In this document: piece after piece, positions 23,406-32,759 of the stretch | How positions within the stretch are numbered: the first letter of the stretch is position 1 | How the letters are laid out: the number at the start of each line of letters is the position of its first letter | Assembly (NCBI GenBank): GCA_029782355.1 | Contig: JAKOUY010000016.1 | Location: 558,001 to 622,000, forward strand | Direction: 5' to 3' | Length of the DNA stretch: 64,000 nucleotides | Source of the DNA: Actinomycetes bacterium | GTDB taxonomy: Bacteria > Actinomycetota > Acidimicrobiia > Acidimicrobiales > Ilumatobacteraceae | Position numbers and translations under genes: made by a program | The notes under the pieces: generated by a model | Databases searched by the model: none | Seen by the model: the letters and a program-made list of their open reading frames with translations, nothing else | What the model was told of the DNA's origin: nothing

Positions 23406-24824
23406 GTGCTGGCGATCCAGGTGGAGTTCCTGCGGGGCATGTTCGAGGCTGGCGGGTCCAGCGACGACGAAATTCCATCGTGGCCACCGTCGCCGGCGAG
23501 GCTTTTCAACGCCCTGGTCGCTTCCGCTGACCACGACGATCCGAGCGAGATGGACGCCTTGGCGTGGCTCGAGTCGCTCCCGTCTCCGCGGATTCTGGCG
23601 TCGGCGGACGTTGTCCGAAGCGGCGGGCGAGTGGCCTATGTGCCCACCAACCAGCTCGAGACCAAGCTGTCGTCATACTCGTCCTTCGTGGCGAGAAAGG
23701 GTCTCGGTCCGAGAGTCTGGCGGTCGGTCTCCCCGCAAGACCCGAGAGTTACATACGAGTGGCATGATGCCCAGCCCGGCGAGCGTGCGAGCGCAATCGC
23801 ATCCGTCCTCCAACGGCTCGGCTACCTCGGTCGGTCGACATCGGCCGTGTCGGCCTCGGTGATCGTCTCGCAGGTCGATTCGGCCGACATCGGTGGACGC
23901 GCAATCTGGCAGCCCGGACCGCTCGACGGGCCGGGTGCTCCGCTCCACGTGGTCCAGCCTGGCTACCTCGCAGAATTGGTCGCCGCGCACGATCAACAAC
24001 GTTCCGCGCACGAAGTCCGAACCGCAACGGTTCGTTACCGGACCGCACCGCCTATCGCTGGGGATCCTGTTGTCGAGTCGCCGTACGGGGAACTGATAAT
24101 CCTGGCGTTCCGAGGACAGCGGTCGTTCGCTGCCAACCAGGTAGTCGACTTGTGTGGTCGACTTCGGGAGGCGATCCAGTCCCATCTCGGCGGCGGGCCG
24201 CTTGTGCTCCGTGGCCGGCCACGAAACACTCCCCGCGCACAGGATGAGCGCCACGAGGTGTGCTTCGCCGCGTTGCCGTTCGTCGGTCACGAGCGCGCGA
24301 CGGGGTCAGTGTTGGGCGTGGCTGTCGCACTCCCTCGAGTGCTCGAGGCCGAGGATCGGCGTGCTGTACTGCGGGGTCTCGCTGGGGTTGTCGCTTCCGG
24401 CCTCAGACTCGGGCGCCTCGGCACCGTCGAATTGGATCCAGGCGCGTCGTCGAAGTGGACGTTGCAGTCCAATACCTGGTGCCGTCCTTCGAAGGAGTGG
24501 GTGTCGGCATTGCCGATTTCCAGCCACCGTCACCTTCGACTCGCCGACCGGACGGCGCTGGAGCGCGAGGTGCGCACCGCGATCGGCCATCTCGATCTCC
24601 CCTCACCCGAAGCGGTCGAAGTCAGTATGACTCCGCTGCTGCCCGGCGCGCAGGTGGTTCCGCCGCAGTCGCGCGTGCGTCACCTAGGTGACCGAGCCAC
24701 TGCGTCGTTCCACGCCCGGGTGCAGTTCGCCGACCTGGTCAGGGGGCCAATGATCCTCGGCTACATGCGGCGATATGGGCTGGGTCTCATGCTCCCTGTG
24801 GACGCGAGCAGGTCGACGCCATGA
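23406..24824 (+). CDS. csb2: Type I-G CRISPR Cas5-Cas6 fusion (Csb2/GSU0054 family)
   Basis: Csb2 proteins combine Cas5-like and Cas6-like RAMP units and are thought to process pre-crRNA and cap the complex in type I-G. The N-terminus (AIQVEFLRGMFEAG, then WPPSPARLFNALVA) is diagnostic, and the C-terminal GPMILGYMRRYGLGLMLP segment is the glycine-rich RAMP loop. 472 residues. GTG 23406 lies 5 bases after GAGGAG; GTG 23403 is the alternative. The stop overlaps cas3 in ATGA. Confidence 0.88.
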   Translation: MLAIQVEFLRGMFEAGGSSDDEIPSWPPSPARLFNALVASADHDDPSEMDALAWLESLPSPRILASADVVRSGGRVAYVPTNQLETKLSSYSSFVARKGLGPRVWRSVSPQDPRVTYEWHDAQPGERASAIASVLQRLGYLGRSTSAVSASVIVSQVDSADIGGRAIWQPGPLDGPGAPLHVVQPGYLAELVAAHDQQRSAHEVRTATVRYRTAPPIAGDPVVESPYGELIILAFRGQRSFAANQVVDLCGRLREAIQSHLGGGPLVLRGRPRNTPRAQDERHEVCFAALPFVGHERATGSVLGVAVALPRVLEAEDRRAVLRGLAGVVASGLRLGRLGTVELDPGASSKWTLQSNTWCRPSKEWVSALPISSHRHLRLADRTALEREVRTAIGHLDLPSPEAVEVSMTPLLPGAQVVPPQSRVRHLGDRATASFHARVQFADLVRGPMILGYMRRYGLGLMLPVDASRSTP

Positions 24825-27745
24825 CTCTGGCAACGCCATCGTTCGCTGAGTTCTTTGGCGCGCTGCACGGGTACGCGCCCTTCCCCTGGCAACGACGACT
24901 GGCCGAGCGAGTGATCGAGCAGGGATGGCCGTCCACCATCGATGCGCCGACGGGACTGGGCAAGACGTCGGTACTCGACGTCGCCCTGTACGTCTTGGCC
25001 TACCAGGCTGATCTTGATCCGAGGGTTCGCACGGCCCATACCCGCATCGCGCTGGTCGTCGATCGGCGTCTGATTGTGGACTCGGCCTTCCAGCACGCGA
25101 ACGACATTTGCCGTCGGCTTTCGGCGGCCGAGAGTGATGTGCTGCGGTGGGCTCGTGACCGCCTGCGCATGGTCAGCGGCACCGACGAAGCGCTCGCTGT
25201 CCGGCAGATGCGCGGTGGCCTGACTTGGGATTCGCTATGGGCCACATCGCCGAGTCAACCCCTGATTCTGACTGCGACTGTGGACCAGTTTGGGTCGCGC
25301 TTGCTCTTTCGTGGCTACAGCACCAGCGACTGGATCAAACCGATCGACGCAGGCTTGTTGGGCTCCGATTGTCTCGTCCTGGTCGATGAGGCTCACCTGT
25401 CGGGGGCGCTCCTGGAAACCACGGCTGGTGTCCGAGCTATCGAAGGCCTCGCCGTCGAACTTCCCGTTGATCATCGACGGCTCACGGTGGTCTCGATGAC
25501 TGCGACGCCGAACTCCGACTCAGAGCCGGTCCTCTCCGACGAGGATCTCGCTGATCCGGTTGCGTCAGCCCGGCTCTCGGCAGTGAAGGAGGCGATGCTG
25601 ATCGATGTGCCGGGCGCTACCACTCGATCGAGGGCCGTCGCCGACGTAGGCACGGCGCTTAGTTGTCTCGCCCAGCACGCATTGACTGGAACAGCGCAAG
25701 TCGTTCTCGTCACCGCGAACACCGTCAGCGCAGCGCGCGCGGCCTTTCAGGATGTACGTCGCGCGGGCATCCCGGCCGAACTGGTCATCGGACGATGCCG
25801 ACCGGTCGATCGAGATGCCCGGATGGCCAGGTGGTGGCCCCTGACCAGGACCGGCCGAGACCGCCGCGCGCAACGCGGACCGTTCGTGCTCGTAGCGACC
25901 CAGACCGTCGAGGTGGGCGTCGACCTCGACGTCGACGCGTTGGTCACGGAAGTTGCGCCGATCGATGCGCTAATTCAACGGTTCGGGCGCGTCGACCGCC
26001 GAGGCGAACTCGGCCGGACGATGAGTTTCATCGTTCGCGTACCGAACCGGCTCCGCGACGATCCCCCGCCGTACTACTCCGCGAGTGCCGCGACGTGGGA
26101 TTGGCTGTCCGCGGAGGCCGATGTCGGCATCCTGAGCGGCCGGACGTTGGCGGTTCCTGCGCGGCGTGTGGACATGGGCGTCGTGGAGGTGCGCAACGCG
26201 CTCTCGCGGTCGGATCAGGTGAGGCGACTTCTCGCGCCGACGACGCGTCCTCCGGTGGTTCTTCCAACGGCCGTGTCCACGTGGCGGCGGACGTCACCCA
26301 TTCCGGTGCCCGACGAGTCGATCATTGGTTACCTCCATGGTGTGGGTCGCGGCCAACCGGTGGTCTCGGTGTTGTGGCGCTGCGATCTGGATCTTCCGCA
26401 GGAAGTCCTCGTTGGGGATGAAGTTGGCGTCGAACCGGACCCAATGCCACACGAGATCGTCGAAGTCCCCTTGGAGATGGTGCGCCGTTGGTTGGCGGGT
26501 GAGGAGGAGTCCGACAGCAGCGACCTCGACTCCGATGTCGTCGAGCCACCCAGCAAGGGGAGGCTCGCTGGATCCTTACCCTCCGTCGTGGTGCGGCGCG
26601 GTGAGAGTTGGCGACGTATTCGCCACCCGCGTCAAGTCCGGCCAGGTGACATTCTCGTGGTGCCGTCCGAATTCGGTGGCCATGATGAGTTCGGGTTCAT
26701 TGGCAGTTACCGGCGTCCTGTGGCGGATGTGGCGGAATTGGGCGGAGGTTCCCCCTTTCTTCGAGTGAGCAGACCCGTACTTCGGTGTTTGCTCGGCCGC
26801 GATCTGGCCGCGGATGAAGCAGAACTCGTGGGCGACCTGCGGCGAGCTGGCATGCCACCGCGAGAGGCGCGAGCGTCGGCCGCCTCCCTCTGCATGCTGA
26901 TGGCCGAACGGCTCGATGACGCGAGCCCATACCCTGACGAGGTTGCGGCACTACTTGGAAGGTTCTGCGTGGCCGGGAACATCCGCGTCGATCTACCGCT
27001 GCATGGTGGCGAGTTCGATGACGGGTATGCGGGGGGCGATCAGAGTGCCAACGGCGTGTGCGTGATCAGAGCCCGCACCGCAGCGGCCGCCAATGTGAGC
27101 GATGACTCCGACCAGTCATCAACCACCGCAGTTCACGTCTCGCTCGAGAGTCATCTTCGGTCGGTTGGCGAGAAGGCCGCGGAGTTCGGCAAGCGATGTG
27201 GGCTCGCCCCATCGTTTGCGCGCGCGGTCGAACTCGCCGGGCGACTTCACGACCTGGGCAAGGCCGAGATTCGATTCCAGGCGCTACTCGCCGGTGGTCC
27301 CGTGTGGATGATCGAGGCGATGTCAGGTGATTCAGCGTCGCTGCTCGCTAAGAGTGGTCGACCGCTGGGTCGGCTCCGTCTGGCCGGCCAGTTGGCTCAG
27401 TGGCCGCGCAACATGCGACATGAGGCGTTGTCGTTGAGGATGGTGGCCGGGGCACCCGACCGGCTGTTCGCTGGGTGTGACCGGCACCTCGTCGAGCACT
27501 TGGTGGCAGCCCACCATGGTCGCGCGCGTCCGCTCTATCAGGTCATCGAGGATGACGAGCCGACCACCGCCCGAGTCGATTTCGATGGATGTTCGTTCAT
27601 CGCGTCAACGTCTGGGGCCAGTCCTGGCTGGGACCAGCCTGCGCGATTCGAGCAACTCTCCGTCAGATACGGCTCGTGGGGCCTGGCGTATCTGGAAGCC
27701 ATTGTGCGTCTCGCGGACATCTCCACGTCGAAGGCGGGTCGGTGA
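24821..27745 (+). CDS. cas3: Type I-G Cas3 helicase-nuclease with C-terminal HD domain
   Basis: Target-degrading helicase-nuclease of the type I-G system. N-terminal superfamily 2 helicase: Walker A DAPTGLGKTS (about 40-49), DEAH box in LVDEAHLSG (about 189), SMTATP, and motif VI QRFGRVDRRGE (about 386-396). The HD nuclease is at the C-terminus, as usual in this subtype: LHDLGKAE near residue 808 and later AAHHGR. 974 residues with no break. Overlaps at both ends (ATGA with csb2, GTGA with the next gene) indicate one transcript. Confidence 0.92.
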   Translation: MTLATPSFAEFFGALHGYAPFPWQRRLAERVIEQGWPSTIDAPTGLGKTSVLDVALYVLAYQADLDPRVRTAHTRIALVVDRRLIVDSAFQHANDICRRLSAAESDVLRWARDRLRMVSGTDEALAVRQMRGGLTWDSLWATSPSQPLILTATVDQFGSRLLFRGYSTSDWIKPIDAGLLGSDCLVLVDEAHLSGALLETTAGVRAIEGLAVELPVDHRRLTVVSMTATPNSDSEPVLSDEDLADPVASARLSAVKEAMLIDVPGATTRSRAVADVGTALSCLAQHALTGTAQVVLVTANTVSAARAAFQDVRRAGIPAELVIGRCRPVDRDARMARWWPLTRTGRDRRAQRGPFVLVATQTVEVGVDLDVDALVTEVAPIDALIQRFGRVDRRGELGRTMSFIVRVPNRLRDDPPPYYSASAATWDWLSAEADVGILSGRTLAVPARRVDMGVVEVRNALSRSDQVRRLLAPTTRPPVVLPTAVSTWRRTSPIPVPDESIIGYLHGVGRGQPVVSVLWRCDLDLPQEVLVGDEVGVEPDPMPHEIVEVPLEMVRRWLAGEEESDSSDLDSDVVEPPSKGRLAGSLPSVVVRRGESWRRIRHPRQVRPGDILVVPSEFGGHDEFGFIGSYRRPVADVAELGGGSPFLRVSRPVLRCLLGRDLAADEAELVGDLRRAGMPPREARASAASLCMLMAERLDDASPYPDEVAALLGRFCVAGNIRVDLPLHGGEFDDGYAGGDQSANGVCVIRARTAAAANVSDDSDQSSTTAVHVSLESHLRSVGEKAAEFGKRCGLAPSFARAVELAGRLHDLGKAEIRFQALLAGGPVWMIEAMSGDSASLLAKSGRPLGRLRLAGQLAQWPRNMRHEALSLRMVAGAPDRLFAGCDRHLVEHLVAAHHGRARPLYQVIEDDEPTTARVDFDGCSFIASTSGASPGWDQPARFEQLSVRYGSWGLAYLEAIVRLADISTSKAGR

Positions 27746-28671
27746 ACACGATTCGCCTCCCTGCCCTGCGTGCTGACCAGATCGTAGGATTTCTGGCGGC
27801 GCTCGGTGTGTTGCGGCTGACCACCGATGTGCTCGATGACCCCGCCAAACTGAGTTGGCCGGACGGTGGCCGGGATGGTGCCGTCCTCCGCTCGAGGAGG
27901 TTCGCCGATCTTGGTGAGCTGTCTACTGCGCTATACGGAGTGGCCCACGATCTGAGGACGACCGGCCGCCTGGTACCCGGTGTGGACGGACTTCCGCTGG
28001 TGAGATCGGACGCGGACCCGATGAACTCGCTCTCCTTCGACGACGGGCGAGGCCTGGCTACGAGCTACCAACTCGACCCGGTCGGTTCTGAGTGGCTCGC
28101 ATCAATGGTCGGGCTGGCTAGCCCTGGGGAAGACGGGAGGCTCAAGCGGTCCCGGTGGTGGGCAGTCGGCCCTGGGCCCGTCACGATCGCTGGCACATTG
28201 ACGAAAGCGCTAGAGCCCATCGTCGGGGTGGCGGACATCGCCTCAGCGCTCACGAGCTGGCGACGTCACGATTGGGTTGGTGGCTACCTGGACAACGCTG
28301 CAGACGTTGGCAAAGAACGGATCGCCGGGACACGAAAGCGTGACGAGTTCAAAGCGGCGGTCGTCGGCGGGACGTGGCTGGCATTGCTAGCTACGGGTTG
28401 GTTTCCCGAGCGTGCGATCGGCGAGACCGCGACGGAGACAGTGGGTTGGGGGGTAAGCGGTCGTCGGGCCGTGTTCGGATATCCGGTGTGGCGAGAGGCG
28501 CTTGATGCCAGCGCAGTACGCGTCATGCTCGATCACCCGGCCGTTTCGCGTCGAGACGGGTTTGCCCTGCGTGGCATGTCAGTGGCGGAGTTGTGGGAGT
28601 GCGTCCGGTTGCGGTCTGGGAATAACAACGTTTCGGTGACCCACCCGCATCAGGTCTGGCCAGCGGGGTAG
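27742..28671 (+). CDS. Type I-G Cas8-like subunit (Csx14/Csb3/Csx17 position)
   Basis: 309-residue protein in the slot that holds the highly variable large subunit or Cas3-associated extension of type I-G loci. The N-terminus (RLPALRADQIVGFLAALGVLRL) is typical of Cas8-like proteins that open with a G-hhAALGhLRL pattern; DWVGGYLDNA and a GWGVSGRR segment follow. It is far shorter than the about 700-residue Csx17 form and closer in size to Csx14 or Csb3. Exact family is uncertain. GTG 27742 overlaps the cas3 stop; the stop is 3 bases before cas4. Confidence 0.75.
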   Translation: MNTIRLPALRADQIVGFLAALGVLRLTTDVLDDPAKLSWPDGGRDGAVLRSRRFADLGELSTALYGVAHDLRTTGRLVPGVDGLPLVRSDADPMNSLSFDDGRGLATSYQLDPVGSEWLASMVGLASPGEDGRLKRSRWWAVGPGPVTIAGTLTKALEPIVGVADIASALTSWRRHDWVGGYLDNAADVGKERIAGTRKRDEFKAAVVGGTWLALLATGWFPERAIGETATETVGWGVSGRRAVFGYPVWREALDASAVRVMLDHPAVSRRDGFALRGMSVAELWECVRLRSGNNNVSVTHPHQVWPAG

Positions 28672-28674
28672 CCG

Positions 28675-29106
28675 GTGGAGCACGAGCCCGTTGCCGATCT
28701 TCCGCCGTACGTGCCAACAAGGCTGGCCAATGAGTTCGTCTACTGTCCGCGGTTCTTTCATCTCGCGTGGTCCGCGGGCGAGCAGGGGGAGAACGACTTC
28801 ACGGCGGAGGGCAAGTGGGAACACCGCCGTGTCGACATCGAGACCGGACGACTGGACATTGGCGGTGGGGAAGCGCGGGCGACGAGTGTCTTGGTTTCCT
28901 CGGATCGCCTTGGTGCTATCGCCAAGGTTGACATCGTTCGATCGAGCGACGGAACGGTTGTCCCCGTTGAGTTGAAGCGTGGGCAGTTGCGTGACGCTGA
29001 GCATCCAGTGTGGGAACCTGAGCGGGTCCAGATCGCGTTGGCGGCCATGATCCTGCGGGACAATGGGTTCGAGGTCCCGCACGCGGAAGTGCGTTTCACT
29101 GGTTCG
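28675..29106 (+). pseudogene. cas4: cas4 (probably cas4-cas1) truncated by IS3
   Basis: First 144 codons of a Cas4 nuclease, which in type I-G is usually fused to Cas1. The N-terminal Fe-S cysteine context ANEFVYCPRFFHL, the catalytic region with VELKRGQ, and QIALAAMILRDNG are present. The sequence then runs into TGGAGTGACCC (29107), the end of an IS3 element. The three C-terminal cluster cysteines and any Cas1 domain are gone. The frame stays open to 29229, but residues after 144 are IS-derived. New-spacer acquisition in cis is therefore lost. Confidence 0.85.
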
Positions 29107-29185
29107 TGGAGTGACCCTGGAGTGACCCCCGGATGGCGGACACCTATCGTGAGACGGGCTGAGGCCTGTCTCGGAAGGAGTCCAG

Positions 29186-29470
29186 ATGCCTCGTCCTCAT
29201 CCTCCCGAGTTCCGGCAACGCGCGGTTGAGCTCGTCCGATTGCGTGAGAAGCCCGTAGCGGAGATCGCCCGGGAACTCGGGATCTCGGACAGCTGTCTGC
29301 GGAACTGGATGGCGCAGGCCGATATCAACGAGGGTGCTCGGCCCGGTCTCACCACCGACGAGCGTGCAGAGCTGGTGGCGTTGCGCCGCAAGAACCGGGT
29401 GCTCGAGCTCGAAGTCGAGATCCTGAAGCGAGCCAGCGCCTACTTCGCTCGGGAGAATGTCCTCCAGTGA
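29186..29470 (+). CDS. IS3-family transposase OrfA
   Basis: Helix-turn-helix protein of 94 residues that recognises the IS ends. The HTH (KPVAEIARELGISDSCLRNWM) and the leucine-rich coiled coil (ELVALRRKNRVLELEVEILKRASAYFAREN) are intact. The last residue comes from the IS110 insertion: the usual C-terminal LPK and the frameshift site were displaced. ATG 29186 follows GGAAGGAG. Confidence 0.92.
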   Translation: MPRPHPPEFRQRAVELVRLREKPVAEIARELGISDSCLRNWMAQADINEGARPGLTTDERAELVALRRKNRVLELEVEILKRASAYFARENVLQ

Positions 29471-29474
29471 TCAT

Positions 29475-29675
29475 GATGTGGAGGCTGGTTGGCTGCGGCT
29501 GACCCGATGTGCTCTCGACCGTGGTGTCTTACTTTGGACTTGTCGTCGCCGCTGGCCAGCACCGAAACCGTCGGCGCTCGGGTTCAGCTTGGTGACCTGA
29601 TAGGAGCGTGCAGCTCGATGCCCATCACTGGCTTGTCCCTTGATGGTCCCGTCCGCCGACCTTCACACGGAGGAT
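29475..29675 (+). ncRNA. Putative bridge RNA of IS110 element A
   Basis: Non-coding leader upstream of the recombinase, the location of bridge RNAs in IS110-group elements. Donor-loop signals: ATAGGAGCGT at 29600-29609 is identical to the element's right end (30735-30744), and ATCACTGG at 29624-29631 is the reverse complement of the left junction CCAGTGAT (29464-29471). Target-loop candidate: TTTGGAC at 29533-29539 is the reverse complement of GTCCAAA at the right junction (30743-30749). The RNA ends are not known. Confidence 0.7.
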
Positions 29676-29679
29676 CAGA

Positions 29680-30732
29680 ATGGACACATCGTTAGGCATC
29701 ATTGGCGGCGTCGACACACACTTGGCGATGCACTGCGTAGCAGCGATCGATGGGCGCGGCGCGCTGCTCGCCACGAGTGAGTTTCCCGCATCACCGGCCG
29801 GCTACCGGCTCCTGATCGGGTGGCTTCGAGCGCATGGCCGGGTGGTCAAAGTCGGGGTTGAGGGCAGCGGCTCGTATGGGGCTGGGCTGACGCGAGCTCT
29901 GATCGATGAGCATGTGCCGGTGGTCGAGGTGCCCCGGCCGGATCGGCGAATCCGGGTGCTACGCGGGAAGTCGGATCCGATCGATGCCGAGGCTGCGGCA
30001 CGCTCCGCGCTGGCCGGCACCGCGAGCTCGGCCGCGAAGCACGCTGATGGTGCGATCGAGGCGATCCGCCAGCTACGCGTGGCCCGCAACGGGGCCGTGA
30101 AAGCAAAGACCGCCGCGTTGAACACTCTCCACGCGCTGGTCGTGACGGCACCCGAGCAACTCCGTCGCGAGCTCGAGGGGTTGCCCCGCGTCCAGCTGCT
30201 GGAGCGTTGCGCTGGATTCCGACCGCACCAGGATCGGCTGGCCGATCCGAGCGAGGCAGCCAAGACCGCGATGCGTTCCGTCGCACGCCGCGCCCTCCAA
30301 CTACGCGTCGAGGCCGACACCTTGCACTCCCAGCTTGCCAAGCTCGTCACCACCACCGCACCGCGCACATCAAACCTGTTCGCTCTCGGCCCAGACACCA
30401 CCGCAGCACTCCTGATCGCGGTGGGCGACAACCCCGACCGGCTACGCAGCGAGGCCGCCTTTGCCCGGCTCTGTGGTGTGGCCCCGATCCCGGCATCGTC
30501 GGGTAAGACCAACAGACACAGGTTGCATCGAGGCGGTGACCGATCCGCGAACCGCGCCCTACACGTCGCCGTCGTGGTGCGGCTCCGCTTCTGTCCACGC
30601 ACCCGCGCCTACCTGGAACGCCGCCGCGGTGACGGTCTGAGCAAGCTCGAAGCGGTCCGCTGTCTCAAACGGTTCCTCGCACGCGAAGTCTTCAACGCCA
30701 TCCGAGACGACTACGAAGCACTCACCGCTTGA
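29680..30732 (+). CDS. IS110-family recombinase, element A
   Basis: DEDD-type recombinase of 350 residues. RuvC-like N-terminal domain with GGVDTH (first Asp), VEGSGSYG (Glu) and SDPIDAEAAARS (Asp pair). The C-terminal Tnp domain has the catalytic serine region PIPASSGKTNRHRLHRGGDRSANRALH. Both parts are intact, so it may be active. It acts with its bridge RNA to join donor and target by family knowledge. ATG 29680 follows GGAGGA. Confidence 0.95.
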   Translation: MDTSLGIIGGVDTHLAMHCVAAIDGRGALLATSEFPASPAGYRLLIGWLRAHGRVVKVGVEGSGSYGAGLTRALIDEHVPVVEVPRPDRRIRVLRGKSDPIDAEAAARSALAGTASSAAKHADGAIEAIRQLRVARNGAVKAKTAALNTLHALVVTAPEQLRRELEGLPRVQLLERCAGFRPHQDRLADPSEAAKTAMRSVARRALQLRVEADTLHSQLAKLVTTTAPRTSNLFALGPDTTAALLIAVGDNPDRLRSEAAFARLCGVAPIPASSGKTNRHRLHRGGDRSANRALHVAVVVRLRFCPRTRAYLERRRGDGLSKLEAVRCLKRFLAREVFNAIRDDYEALTA

Positions 30733-30749
30733 CAATAGGAGCGTCCAAA

Positions 30750-31433
30750 ATGATCTACACCTTCATCGTCGACCGGTGCGCCGATCTCCCGGTTGGGGTC
30801 GTGTGCCGGGTGATGAGGGTGTCCCGATCGGCGTTCTACGCGTGGCGACACCACCAGGAGAACCCAACCGCCCGGATGCTGGCCGACGCCGAGCTGGGTG
30901 ATCTGGTCGCCAAGATCCACGAACAGTCCTTCGGCACCTACGGCGCCCGGCGGGTGACCGCCGAGCTCCGGCTCGGCCTCGGTCGTGAGGTGAACCACAA
31001 ACGTGTCGAGCGGCTAATGAGCGAACGCGGCTTGCAGGGCGTCACCCGCCGACGGCGGACCAAGGGCTGCACCCGAACAAGGGTCAACGATCCGCGCTCG
31101 GAAAACCTCGTGCATCGCCAGTTCCGCCCTGACGGCCCGGACCGGCTGTGGGTCCAAGACGTCACCCAGCACCGCACCAGCGAAGGCTGGGTCTACCTCG
31201 CCGTCGTCATCGACGCCTGGAGTCGACGTGTCGTTGGCTGGTCGATCGCCGATCACATGCGCGCCGAACTGGTCGCTGACGCGATCGACATGGCCACCTG
31301 GCGACGCCGACCACCCCACGGCGCGATCGCCCACTCAGATCACGGATCGAACTACTGCTCATGGGTGTTCGGGCAACGACTCCGCCGAGCCGGCCTGCTC
31401 GGCTCGATGGGCACCGTCGGCGACGCCCTGGAC
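30750..31433 (+). pseudogene. IS3-family transposase OrfB, 5' part
   Basis: N-terminal 228 codons of the DDE transposase (MIYTFIVDRC...GDALD). It carries the HTH_21 region and the first two catalytic aspartates, LWVQDVTQHRT and AHSDHGSNYCS. Element B interrupts it just before the third acidic residue. The frame runs on into element B to 31508, giving a nonfunctional tail. Confidence 0.9.
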
Positions 31434-31440
31434 TGTGAGC

Positions 31441-31650
31441 ATGATGGGTGGGTCGTTCGGCCGGTGTCTGACTCTTGCTTTCGACTGGCCGATGTGCCTT
31501 GGCGTTGATCTGTCGGCACCGGTCGGGCGGCGATCAACGCAGCGCCGGCTGGCCGGGAGGGCGGTGACCGAATAGGGGCCTGCGCTCAAACCGACCCGTC
31601 ACAGTCCTGTCCTTCCCACCCGACCAGCTGGCATCGACCGTCCAGGAGGA
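31441..31650 (+). ncRNA. Putative bridge RNA of IS110 element B
   Basis: Leader region between the left end and the recombinase. ATAGGGGC at 31572-31579 equals the right end (32749-32756), and TCACAGTCC at 31599-31607 is the reverse complement of the left junction GGACTGTGA (31430-31438): a donor-loop pair. GCGTTGA at 31502-31508 is the reverse complement of TCAACGC at the right junction (32758-32764), a target-guide candidate. That heptamer is also in a 9-bp stem (31502-31510 with 31532-31540), which weakens the last point. Confidence 0.7.
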
Positions 31651-31655
31651 CAGCC

Positions 31656-32735
31656 ATGACCAGCATCGCGCCGATAGCCACCGACCGAAAGATCATCGTC
31701 GGAGTCGACACACACAAGTACGCCCACGTCGCGGTCGCGATCGACCTACTCGGGACGCGCATCGCCGACTGGCAGGTGCCGGCGAACAGGGAGGGCTACG
31801 CCCGGCTTGAGGCGTGGGCTGGTTCGATGGGTCGCGTCTCGGCTTGGGGTGTCGAAGGGACCGGCAGCTACGGGGTCGGCTTGGCCAGCTTCCTGCGACG
31901 CACCGGGCATCGCATCGTCGAGGTCAATCGGGGCGATCGCCGATCACGCCGTTCGAACGGCAAGACCGACACCCTCGACGCCGAGGCGGCAGCGCGCTCG
32001 GTGCTGTCCGGAGCTGCCGCAGCGATCCCCAAGACTGCGGATGGGTCGGCGGAGATGATCCGCCAGATCAAAGTCGCTCGTGACACCGCCCGCAAGGCCC
32101 GCACCTCGGCGATGGTGACGCTGAAGGCATCGATCGTGAACTGCCCCGCCGAACTGCGCGAGAGCTTCGACGGACTGACGGACAAGGTGCTCATCGATCG
32201 CTGCGCCAGTCTGCGACCCGGAGCCGTGATGTCACCAACCGCTGCCGGCAAGCACTCCCTACGAGAGTTGGCGCGCCGCTGGCAACAACTCGGCGACGAA
32301 ATCACCAGACACGACGCTGTCCTCGACGAACTCACCCGCGCTCACGCACCGACACTGCGCGACGGGTTCGGCATCGGCATCGACACCGCAGCCGAGATGC
32401 TGATCGTGTTCGGCGACAACGCCGAACGCGTCCGCAACGAAGCTGCGTTCGCCAAGCTCTGCGGCGTCTGCCCGATCCCAGCCGCGTCCGGACTCACCAG
32501 CCGTCACCGACTGTCGCGAGCCGGCCACCGCGAGGCCAACGCCGCCCTCTACCGCACCGTAATCGTCCGCATGCGATTCCATCAACCGACCATCGACTAC
32601 GTCGCCCGCCGAACCAGCGACGGGCTCTCCAAGCGCGACATCATCCGCTGTCTCAAGCGCTTCGTCGCCCGCGAGGTCTACCAACGCGTCATGACCGACC
32701 ACCGCGCCCGACAACTCGCCAGCGGCGCCGCATGA
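31656..32735 (+). CDS. IS110-family recombinase, element B
   Basis: 359-residue DEDD recombinase with VGVDTHKYAH, VEGTGSYG, KTDTLDAEAAARS and the serine-bearing PIPAASGLTSRHRLSRAGHREANAALY. All catalytic motifs are intact. It follows an AGGAGG-type ribosome site. It is a distant relative of the element A enzyme (same motifs, many differences between them). Confidence 0.95.
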   Translation: MTSIAPIATDRKIIVGVDTHKYAHVAVAIDLLGTRIADWQVPANREGYARLEAWAGSMGRVSAWGVEGTGSYGVGLASFLRRTGHRIVEVNRGDRRSRRSNGKTDTLDAEAAARSVLSGAAAAIPKTADGSAEMIRQIKVARDTARKARTSAMVTLKASIVNCPAELRESFDGLTDKVLIDRCASLRPGAVMSPTAAGKHSLRELARRWQQLGDEITRHDAVLDELTRAHAPTLRDGFGIGIDTAAEMLIVFGDNAERVRNEAAFAKLCGVCPIPAASGLTSRHRLSRAGHREANAALYRTVIVRMRFHQPTIDYVARRTSDGLSKRDIIRCLKRFVAREVYQRVMTDHRARQLASGAA

Positions 32736-32759
32736 ACACTCTTGACATATAGGGGCGTC

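Follow-up and report, generated by a model that had tools for sequence, protein, structure and literature searches.

A putative left-end bridge RNA in an IS110-group insertion sequence nested within an IS3-family element

Promoters that span the circle junction have been described for IS110 elements in part of the text of PMC11208160. In IS621, as set out in passages of PMC11208158, a CT core is shared and the handshake guides pair with partner DNA positions 6-7 after strand exchange. Here, we analyzed an IS110-group insertion sequence, element A, in a window of 64,000 nucleotides from an Actinomycetes bacterium (contig JAKOUY010000016.1, positions 558,001 to 622,000). Element A is very probably an intact single-copy insertion sequence with a bridge RNA encoded in its left end, and it would move by the mechanism proposed below. 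Judged from its sequence, it appears to be a well-supported new example of the already known IS110 bridge-RNA elements. The genome has 3.8 Mb in 40 contigs, and PF01548 matches only two of its genes, those of A and of a second element, B. Both elements are nested within one IS3-family element, and their IS110-type genes are about 48% identical to each other. The features that delimit A and its host are as follows (window positions):

29186-29465, + strand: IS3-family orfA, an open reading frame truncated near its 3' end by element A
29457-29465, + strand: left target ATGTCCTCC, the final bases of the interrupted orfA
29464-29465, + strand: target core CC, the end of the left target
29466-30745 (equivalently 29465-30744), + strand: IS110-group element A, 1280 bp, delimited by the empty site in IS3 relatives
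29680-30732, + strand: recombinase A, 350 residues, with DEDD and Transposase_20 domains
30735-30745, + strand: right end ATAGGAGCGTC, its last two bases being the donor core TC
30746-31433, + strand: right target (from CAAAATGA), with IS3 orfB as far as the B insertion

The boundaries of A follow from uninterrupted IS3 relatives. Three (L084, L085, and L086) of the four closest ones found, which are 72-77% identical in orfA, read CTCCCAAAATGA without interruption at the site of A, and the fourth, L083, differs there. Deleting 29466-30745 regenerates GAATGTCCTCCCAAAATGA and the orfA end ENVLPK, as in L084, L085, and L086. The CTCCCAAAATGA stretch occurs at two further places (L154 and L155), identified by pattern alone in 395 genomes of the class. 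The insertion lacks a target duplication, and one base (C) is common to both junctions. The recombinase scores 69.2 bits for DEDD (PF01548, cut-off 29) and 59.1 bits for Transposase_20 (PF02371, cut-off 21.3), and 13 bases separate its stop codon from the right end. Its closest solved structures are IS621 and ISCro4, the similarity to IS621 being remote (E 1.4e-6 in the PDB search). The motifs GGVDTH, VEGSG, KSDPIDA, and ASSGK would fit the catalytic D, E, D, and D plus the serine. The alignment with IS621, whose catalytic residues were taken from a portion of PMC11208158, spans E, D, and D weakly (domain E 1.5), plus a serine.

The leader upstream of this gene carries four candidate guide segments, which are arranged as follows:

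29465-29672, + strand: predicted bridge RNA region of A, matched by covariance model R1 at 115 bits (A is among the model's 34 sequences)
29507-29515, + strand: left target guide (LTG) ATGTGCTCT, matching ATGTCCTCC at 7/9 positions, in a conserved motif slot
29533-29539, + strand: right target guide (RTG) TTTGGAC, reverse complement of GTCCAAA at 30743-30749
29600-29609, + strand: left donor guide (LDG) ATAGGAGCGT, the same sequence as the right end at 30735-30744
29624-29631, + strand: right donor guide (RDG) ATCACTGG, reverse complement of CCAGTGAT at 29464-29471

Several of these matches had been proposed in an initial annotation. The identity of the LDG with the right end is exact (29600-29609 = 30735-30744), as is the complementarity of TTTGGAC to GTCCAAA over the right junction, for which a role as RTG is consistent with the co-variation in the family, and the order of target loop before donor loop holds in A. 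The match of the RDG to the left junction is also exact, but its assignment to the left end needs a correction, as the empty site places 29464-29465 (CC) in the target core, outside the left end. The donor-pairing part of the RDG is thus ATCACT-G (29624-29630), and the final G (29631) pairs with a target core base. Within the RTG, the pairing partners are CAAA of the right target for TTTG, the donor core TC for GA, and the donor base preceding that core for the final C. The LTG, which the initial annotation had not found, is now placed at 29507-29515 by the family slot. ATGTGCTCT is most likely the missing guide, and the call is credible because the position of the slot is conserved across the family. 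It shows one mismatch and one possible U-G wobble with the left target. In our reading, the internal mismatch would hit the third position of a Val codon in the IS3 orfA, so that a synonymous variant would match.

Guide matches of this length might arise by chance; we compared them with 20,000 dinucleotide shuffles of the 206-base leader. Taken singly, the target guides leave room for coincidence, as the RTG 7-mer occurs in 457/20,000 shuffled leaders and an LTG match of at least 7/9, sought anywhere in the leader, in 7019/20,000. The RDG 8-mer was found in 76/20,000 and any 10-mer of 30733-30749 in 17/20,000. In contrast, the right-end 10-mer and the RDG 8-mer occurred jointly in one shuffle of the 20,000, and the co-variation across the family contradicts chance as well. 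Coincidence is hence an almost negligible explanation.

The co-variation was followed in relatives from two overlapping samples, one of 298 genomes from the order, the other of 395 from the class. These gave 110 loci including A and B, of which 107 were used and 3 were too short. A motif was missing at one end in 33/107 loci, and both LDG and right end, each found by motif independently of the other, were located in 74/107. The 19 distinct LDG/right-end pairs agree at 7.21 of 8 positions versus 6.11 when re-paired (0/5,000 permutations). Placing the left end by the RDG removed 5 of the 74 loci (four with a weak RDG, one with no candidate) and left 69, with 62 distinct leaders. In these, target-loop slots were chosen by conserved motif alone. 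Agreement with the element's own flank reaches 3.98 of 5 positions for the RTG on the right (permuted 1.51, standard deviation 0.14; 0/20,000) and 5.73 of 9 for the LTG on the left (permuted 3.11, standard deviation 0.18; 0/20,000). These permutations ignore relatedness; targets nevertheless vary among close relatives. Some rows are visibly mis-slotted and were retained, and the left anchor of A was set by hand from the empty site. A position-free guide search over the 62 leaders gave 0/10,000 on both sides, a weaker result than the slot test. There, A alone reached the 91st (LTG) and 62nd (RTG) percentile, its left anchor being displaced by one base, and B alone the 50th (LTG) and 65th (RTG). 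A locus at 39% identity from a scan of a genome-contig collection was excluded from the tests, and a scan of a viral-contig collection found no relatives. In homologous copies at other sites, guides thus change together with ends and targets (62 distinct leaders; 19 donor pairs), the behavior that the initial annotation had anticipated for a bridge RNA.

The core was analyzed in 58 of the 62 leaders (L065, L141, L151, and L125 were skipped). The target core of A is CC and its donor core TC, which departs from the shared CT of IS621. A CT core was also tried for A and B and rejected, as the IS3 frame of B requires GAC-AAC. Immediately before the shared C, 57/58 donors carry T, and the targets carry A (36), G (9), C (7), or T (6). 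Counting G-U pairs, the RDG pairs with target position 8 in 52/58 and position 7 in 45/58 elements, and the RTG with donor position 8 in 56/58 and position 7 in 51/58. The cognate pairings at position 8 amount to 7/58 each, and position 6 gives no signal (8/58 and 7/58). Permutation at target positions 8 and 7 and donor position 7 yielded 0/20,000 each; for these and the guide-base tests, positions were chosen without use of the flanks. Element A conforms at position 8 on both sides and at donor position 7. The shared C, the donor T, and the pairing of the RTG with the donor core (56/58) are partly given by construction: T and C are favored by the right-end motif at its final two positions, a C was demanded both at the right end and at the left anchor, and GA plus two pyrimidines form part of the RTG slot motif. 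Independently of the scripts, the shared C and the donor T are supported by the empty sites of A and the B-like loci. Thus, only one core base seems to be shared, and the next base seems to be read after exchange.

A common fold was derived from a structure alignment of 34 non-redundant leaders, reduced from 56, with six rows excluded by hand (L125, L147, L151, L141, L048, and L046). Its target part lies in A as follows:

29485-29559, + strand: target-binding loop with helices 1 and 2; outer stem 29485-29503 with 29542-29559
29517-29519 with 29526-29528, + strand: inner hairpin of the target-binding loop, from the structure alignment

The target loop forms one long stem, in which LTG and RTG flank the inner hairpin on either side; the outer stem is also present in the minimum-energy fold of A itself. 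The four helices comprise 30 pairs, which over the 34 leaders are formed in 89.5% of the cells. The covariation score is 0.518 versus at most 0.195 for slid structures (0/500 shuffles), a test in which the donor stem is favored, as its columns were picked by a scan of the same alignment. The covariance model built from the alignment scores B at 153 bits and A at 115 bits, both being alignment members, with the next-best match in the window at 9 bits. It also matches 66/71 sources left out of its construction. The 40 loci from the IS3 and DNA searches contain one strong match, L102 (30 bits). By eye, L102:1394-1528 looks like an IS110 left-end remnant that immediately precedes an IS3-type orfA in another genome. 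Taken together, the co-variation of the guides, the compensatory changes, and the model matches in unused relatives argue for the bridge RNA that the initial annotation had suggested.

Alternatively, the leader repeats could be end sequences bound by a protein, or regulatory repeats, with no guide RNA involved. An LDG that equals the right end and an RDG that complements the left end would be possible for protein-binding repeats, and the fold of A alone is no better than that of shuffles (z -0.78, 37/200 as good). B alone gave z -1.40 with 16/200 shuffles as good, which is not decisive. Such repeats would, however, not account for LTG and RTG tracking host flanks that lie outside the element and vary from site to site, nor for stems with compensatory changes, and we consider this explanation highly improbable.

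The two halves of a promoter-like site lie at opposite ends of A:

30729-30734, + strand: TTGACA, -35-like half of the circle-junction promoter (consensus match)
29472-29477, + strand: CATGAT, -10-like half; the site arises only on joining of the right and left ends

The joined ends of A read TTGACA-17-CATGAT, with 10 of 12 matches to the consensus (a consensus match only). A promoter-like site with at least 9/12 matches is present across the joined right and left ends of 45/58 elements, A included. By the same criterion, it is found in 1/58 integrated left ends and 5/58 right ends, and shuffled junctions give a mean of 0.26 of 58. A consensus-based promoter and terminator scan of 29300-29800 found none, including no sigma-70-type promoter in the integrated leader.

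In the mechanism we propose, an excised circle would join the right end of A to its left end. The joined ends would assemble the TTGACA-17-CATGAT promoter, from which first the bridge RNA and then the recombinase would be expressed. The recombinase would hold the circle junction via the donor loop (LDG and RDG), while the target loop (LTG and RTG) would hold the orfA/orfB overlap of the IS3 element. Top strands would be cut after the core C. Exchange would then be favored by the complementarity of the RTG with the donor core TC and of the RDG with the target core CC, and the outcome would be A placed into the IS3 element.

Besides the folding result, several points weigh against A being such a working element. 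Its LTG differs from the target at two positions, in a kind of match that shuffled leaders produce readily when it is sought anywhere in them. The RDG is unpaired with target position 7, the donor stem includes several non-standard pairs, and Rfam at gathering score returned one tRNA only in the window, with no family fitting the leader. (At E up to 1, a long non-coding RNA model matched the leader with 18.6 bits against a cut-off of 80, which we treated as chance.) Moreover, A is a single copy in its genome, where no exact empty site remains, so that its mobility is putative. The imperfect LTG, the single copy, and the missing empty site would suit a fossil, that is, an RNA and a recombinase that were once functional in a copy that is now immobile. 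Against this stand the open reading frame with both domains, the exact LDG and RDG, and the promoter-like circle junction, and natural elements with one to two mismatches between guide and target are reported in part of PMC11208160. We regard a fossil as unlikely, yet as the most serious of the alternatives, and an intact bridge-RNA element as the preferred reading of A.

The relatives of A differ in where the RNA lies. Among 62 placed of the 66 model-matched sources, 45 have the RNA upstream only and 11 downstream only; four (L035, L067, L134, and L138) have model matches at both ends, the RNA of L022 overlaps the gene end and runs downstream, and L068 comes with a second element. L064, L066, and L049 combine an upstream match with a downstream target loop seen by eye.

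Relatives of recombinase A with downstream RNA: L132, L127, L145, L031, L023, L036, L014, L038, L116, L022, L117, L133

The downstream RDG finds a plausible left end, at 6/6 bases and 146-297 bases upstream of the gene, in 10/20 such loci; a single 6-mer match could be chance, but seven of the ten lie at 275-297 or have the same left-end letters. The script misplaced the right end or the RDG in several rows of this analysis (e.g., L049, L132, L127, and L031). L035 has a downstream LTG that is identical to its actual left flank, and its upstream loop retains another sequence. The upstream copies in L064, L066, L067, L049, L134, L138, and L035 are without donor guides, giving target-binding loops at both ends, and several upstream leaders of such relatives keep a guide-free hairpin resembling the donor loop (by eye). 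In a recombinase tree of 97 sequences, 16/19 such elements fall into one clade of 18 rows and three elsewhere, the clade support of 96/64 being not firm. The labels UP, DOWN, BOTH, and OTHER were assigned by hand; L117 dropped out of the tree, and L047, with its leader cut by a contig end, was labeled DOWN. A and B are placed among the canonical elements. We saw no description of such a downstream or two-ended RNA layout in the open-licence papers that we consulted.

We infer both the one-base shared core and the two-ended relatives from sequence. A joint reading would be that the bridge RNA, upstream in A and B but complete and downstream in one clade of relatives, has been caught moving between element ends, possibly with a natural two-RNA system, and that pairing after exchange has taken the place of half the shared core; the chances for and against it seem to us evenly divided. 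A two-RNA system would be possible because the target loop and the donor loop of the IS621 synapse come from different RNA molecules, as stated in a section of PMC11208158.

Element B is predicted to be a complete second bridge-RNA element within orfB of the same IS3 element. That orfB begins near 30750, is interrupted by B, and continues from 32760.

About 31434-32759, + strand: IS110-group element B
31432-31433, + strand: target core AC of B, within IS3 orfB
31477-31485, + strand: LTG of B
31502-31508, + strand: RTG of B, GCGTT-GA
From 31572, + strand: LDG of B
Within 31598-31607, + strand: RDG of B
31656-32735, + strand: recombinase gene of B, 359 residues, with both IS110 Pfam domains
From 32749, + strand: right end of B

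Joining the flanks restores the IS3 reading D-N-A in 9/9 B-like loci, which we chose ourselves (B and eight others, two being copies of one element). A second copy of the B leader, identical at 192/192 bases, lies at a contig end (C19:392552-392741, L159), in a different IS3 element of this genome and at the same D-N codon. The start of another contig (C14:170-363, L160) holds a third copy, which is decayed (72% over 164 bases) and sits at that D-N codon in yet another IS3 element. L159 and L160 are both cut by contig ends. That B is inserted twice at one IS3 codon of this genome also speaks for the bridge-RNA reading of A.

The host IS3 element adjoins a CRISPR-Cas stretch at 24821-29229, in which genes of the Cas3g and Cas8g type are followed by a Cas4-like piece. 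Of the 523 positions of the Cas1g model, this piece matches the first 125 only; it runs into the IS3 element and seems to have been truncated by it. No CRISPR-like repeat array was found in window positions 15000-45000. A DNA search with the IS3 orfA in 101 genomes of the family found no close relative beyond this genome.

Element A offers a fully annotated bridge-RNA element remote from IS621; its boundaries, four guides, and empty site are assigned, which makes it directly testable. A one-base shared core with pairing at positions 7-8 after exchange suggests that the core rule is relaxed, a point of importance for programmable recombinases. A and B together would represent RNA-guided elements that land in conserved stretches of another transposon family, and the relatives with the RNA at the other end or with two-ended target loops make a switch between the IS110 and IS1111 layouts testable.

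Compared with IS621, as it is described in passages of PMC11208160 and PMC11208158, A shares a recombinase with DEDD and Transposase_20 domains, a left-end bridge RNA (predicted in A), and a target loop that precedes the donor loop. LTG and LDG resemble the top strand in both, RTG and RDG are complementary to it, a promoter (in A, a consensus match) spans the circle junction, and insertion proceeds without duplication. The two differ in the core. IS621 has a CT core and a handshake at 6-7 in that account, whereas the family of A seems to share the C in second place and to pair at 7-8 after exchange; the first core base in A is T in the donor but C in the target. ISEc21, in the part of PMC11187229 that describes it, is likewise an IS110-type element with an upstream guide RNA and inserts into conserved catalytic codons of IS3-family transposases. 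By this published description, it is a precedent for B, but the targets differ, as B inserts at the D-N-A codons and A at the end of orfA. Subterminal inverted repeats of 7-17 bp are a mark of the IS1111 group. This group has a related recombinase and a guide RNA, but carries the RNA in the right end with a reversed order of target matches, according to parts of PMC11208160 and PMC11187229. A differs from this right-end layout in that its predicted RNA lies upstream, in the left end, and follows the IS110 order. Some relatives of A combine a right-end RNA with the IS110 order, unlike the IS1111 group.
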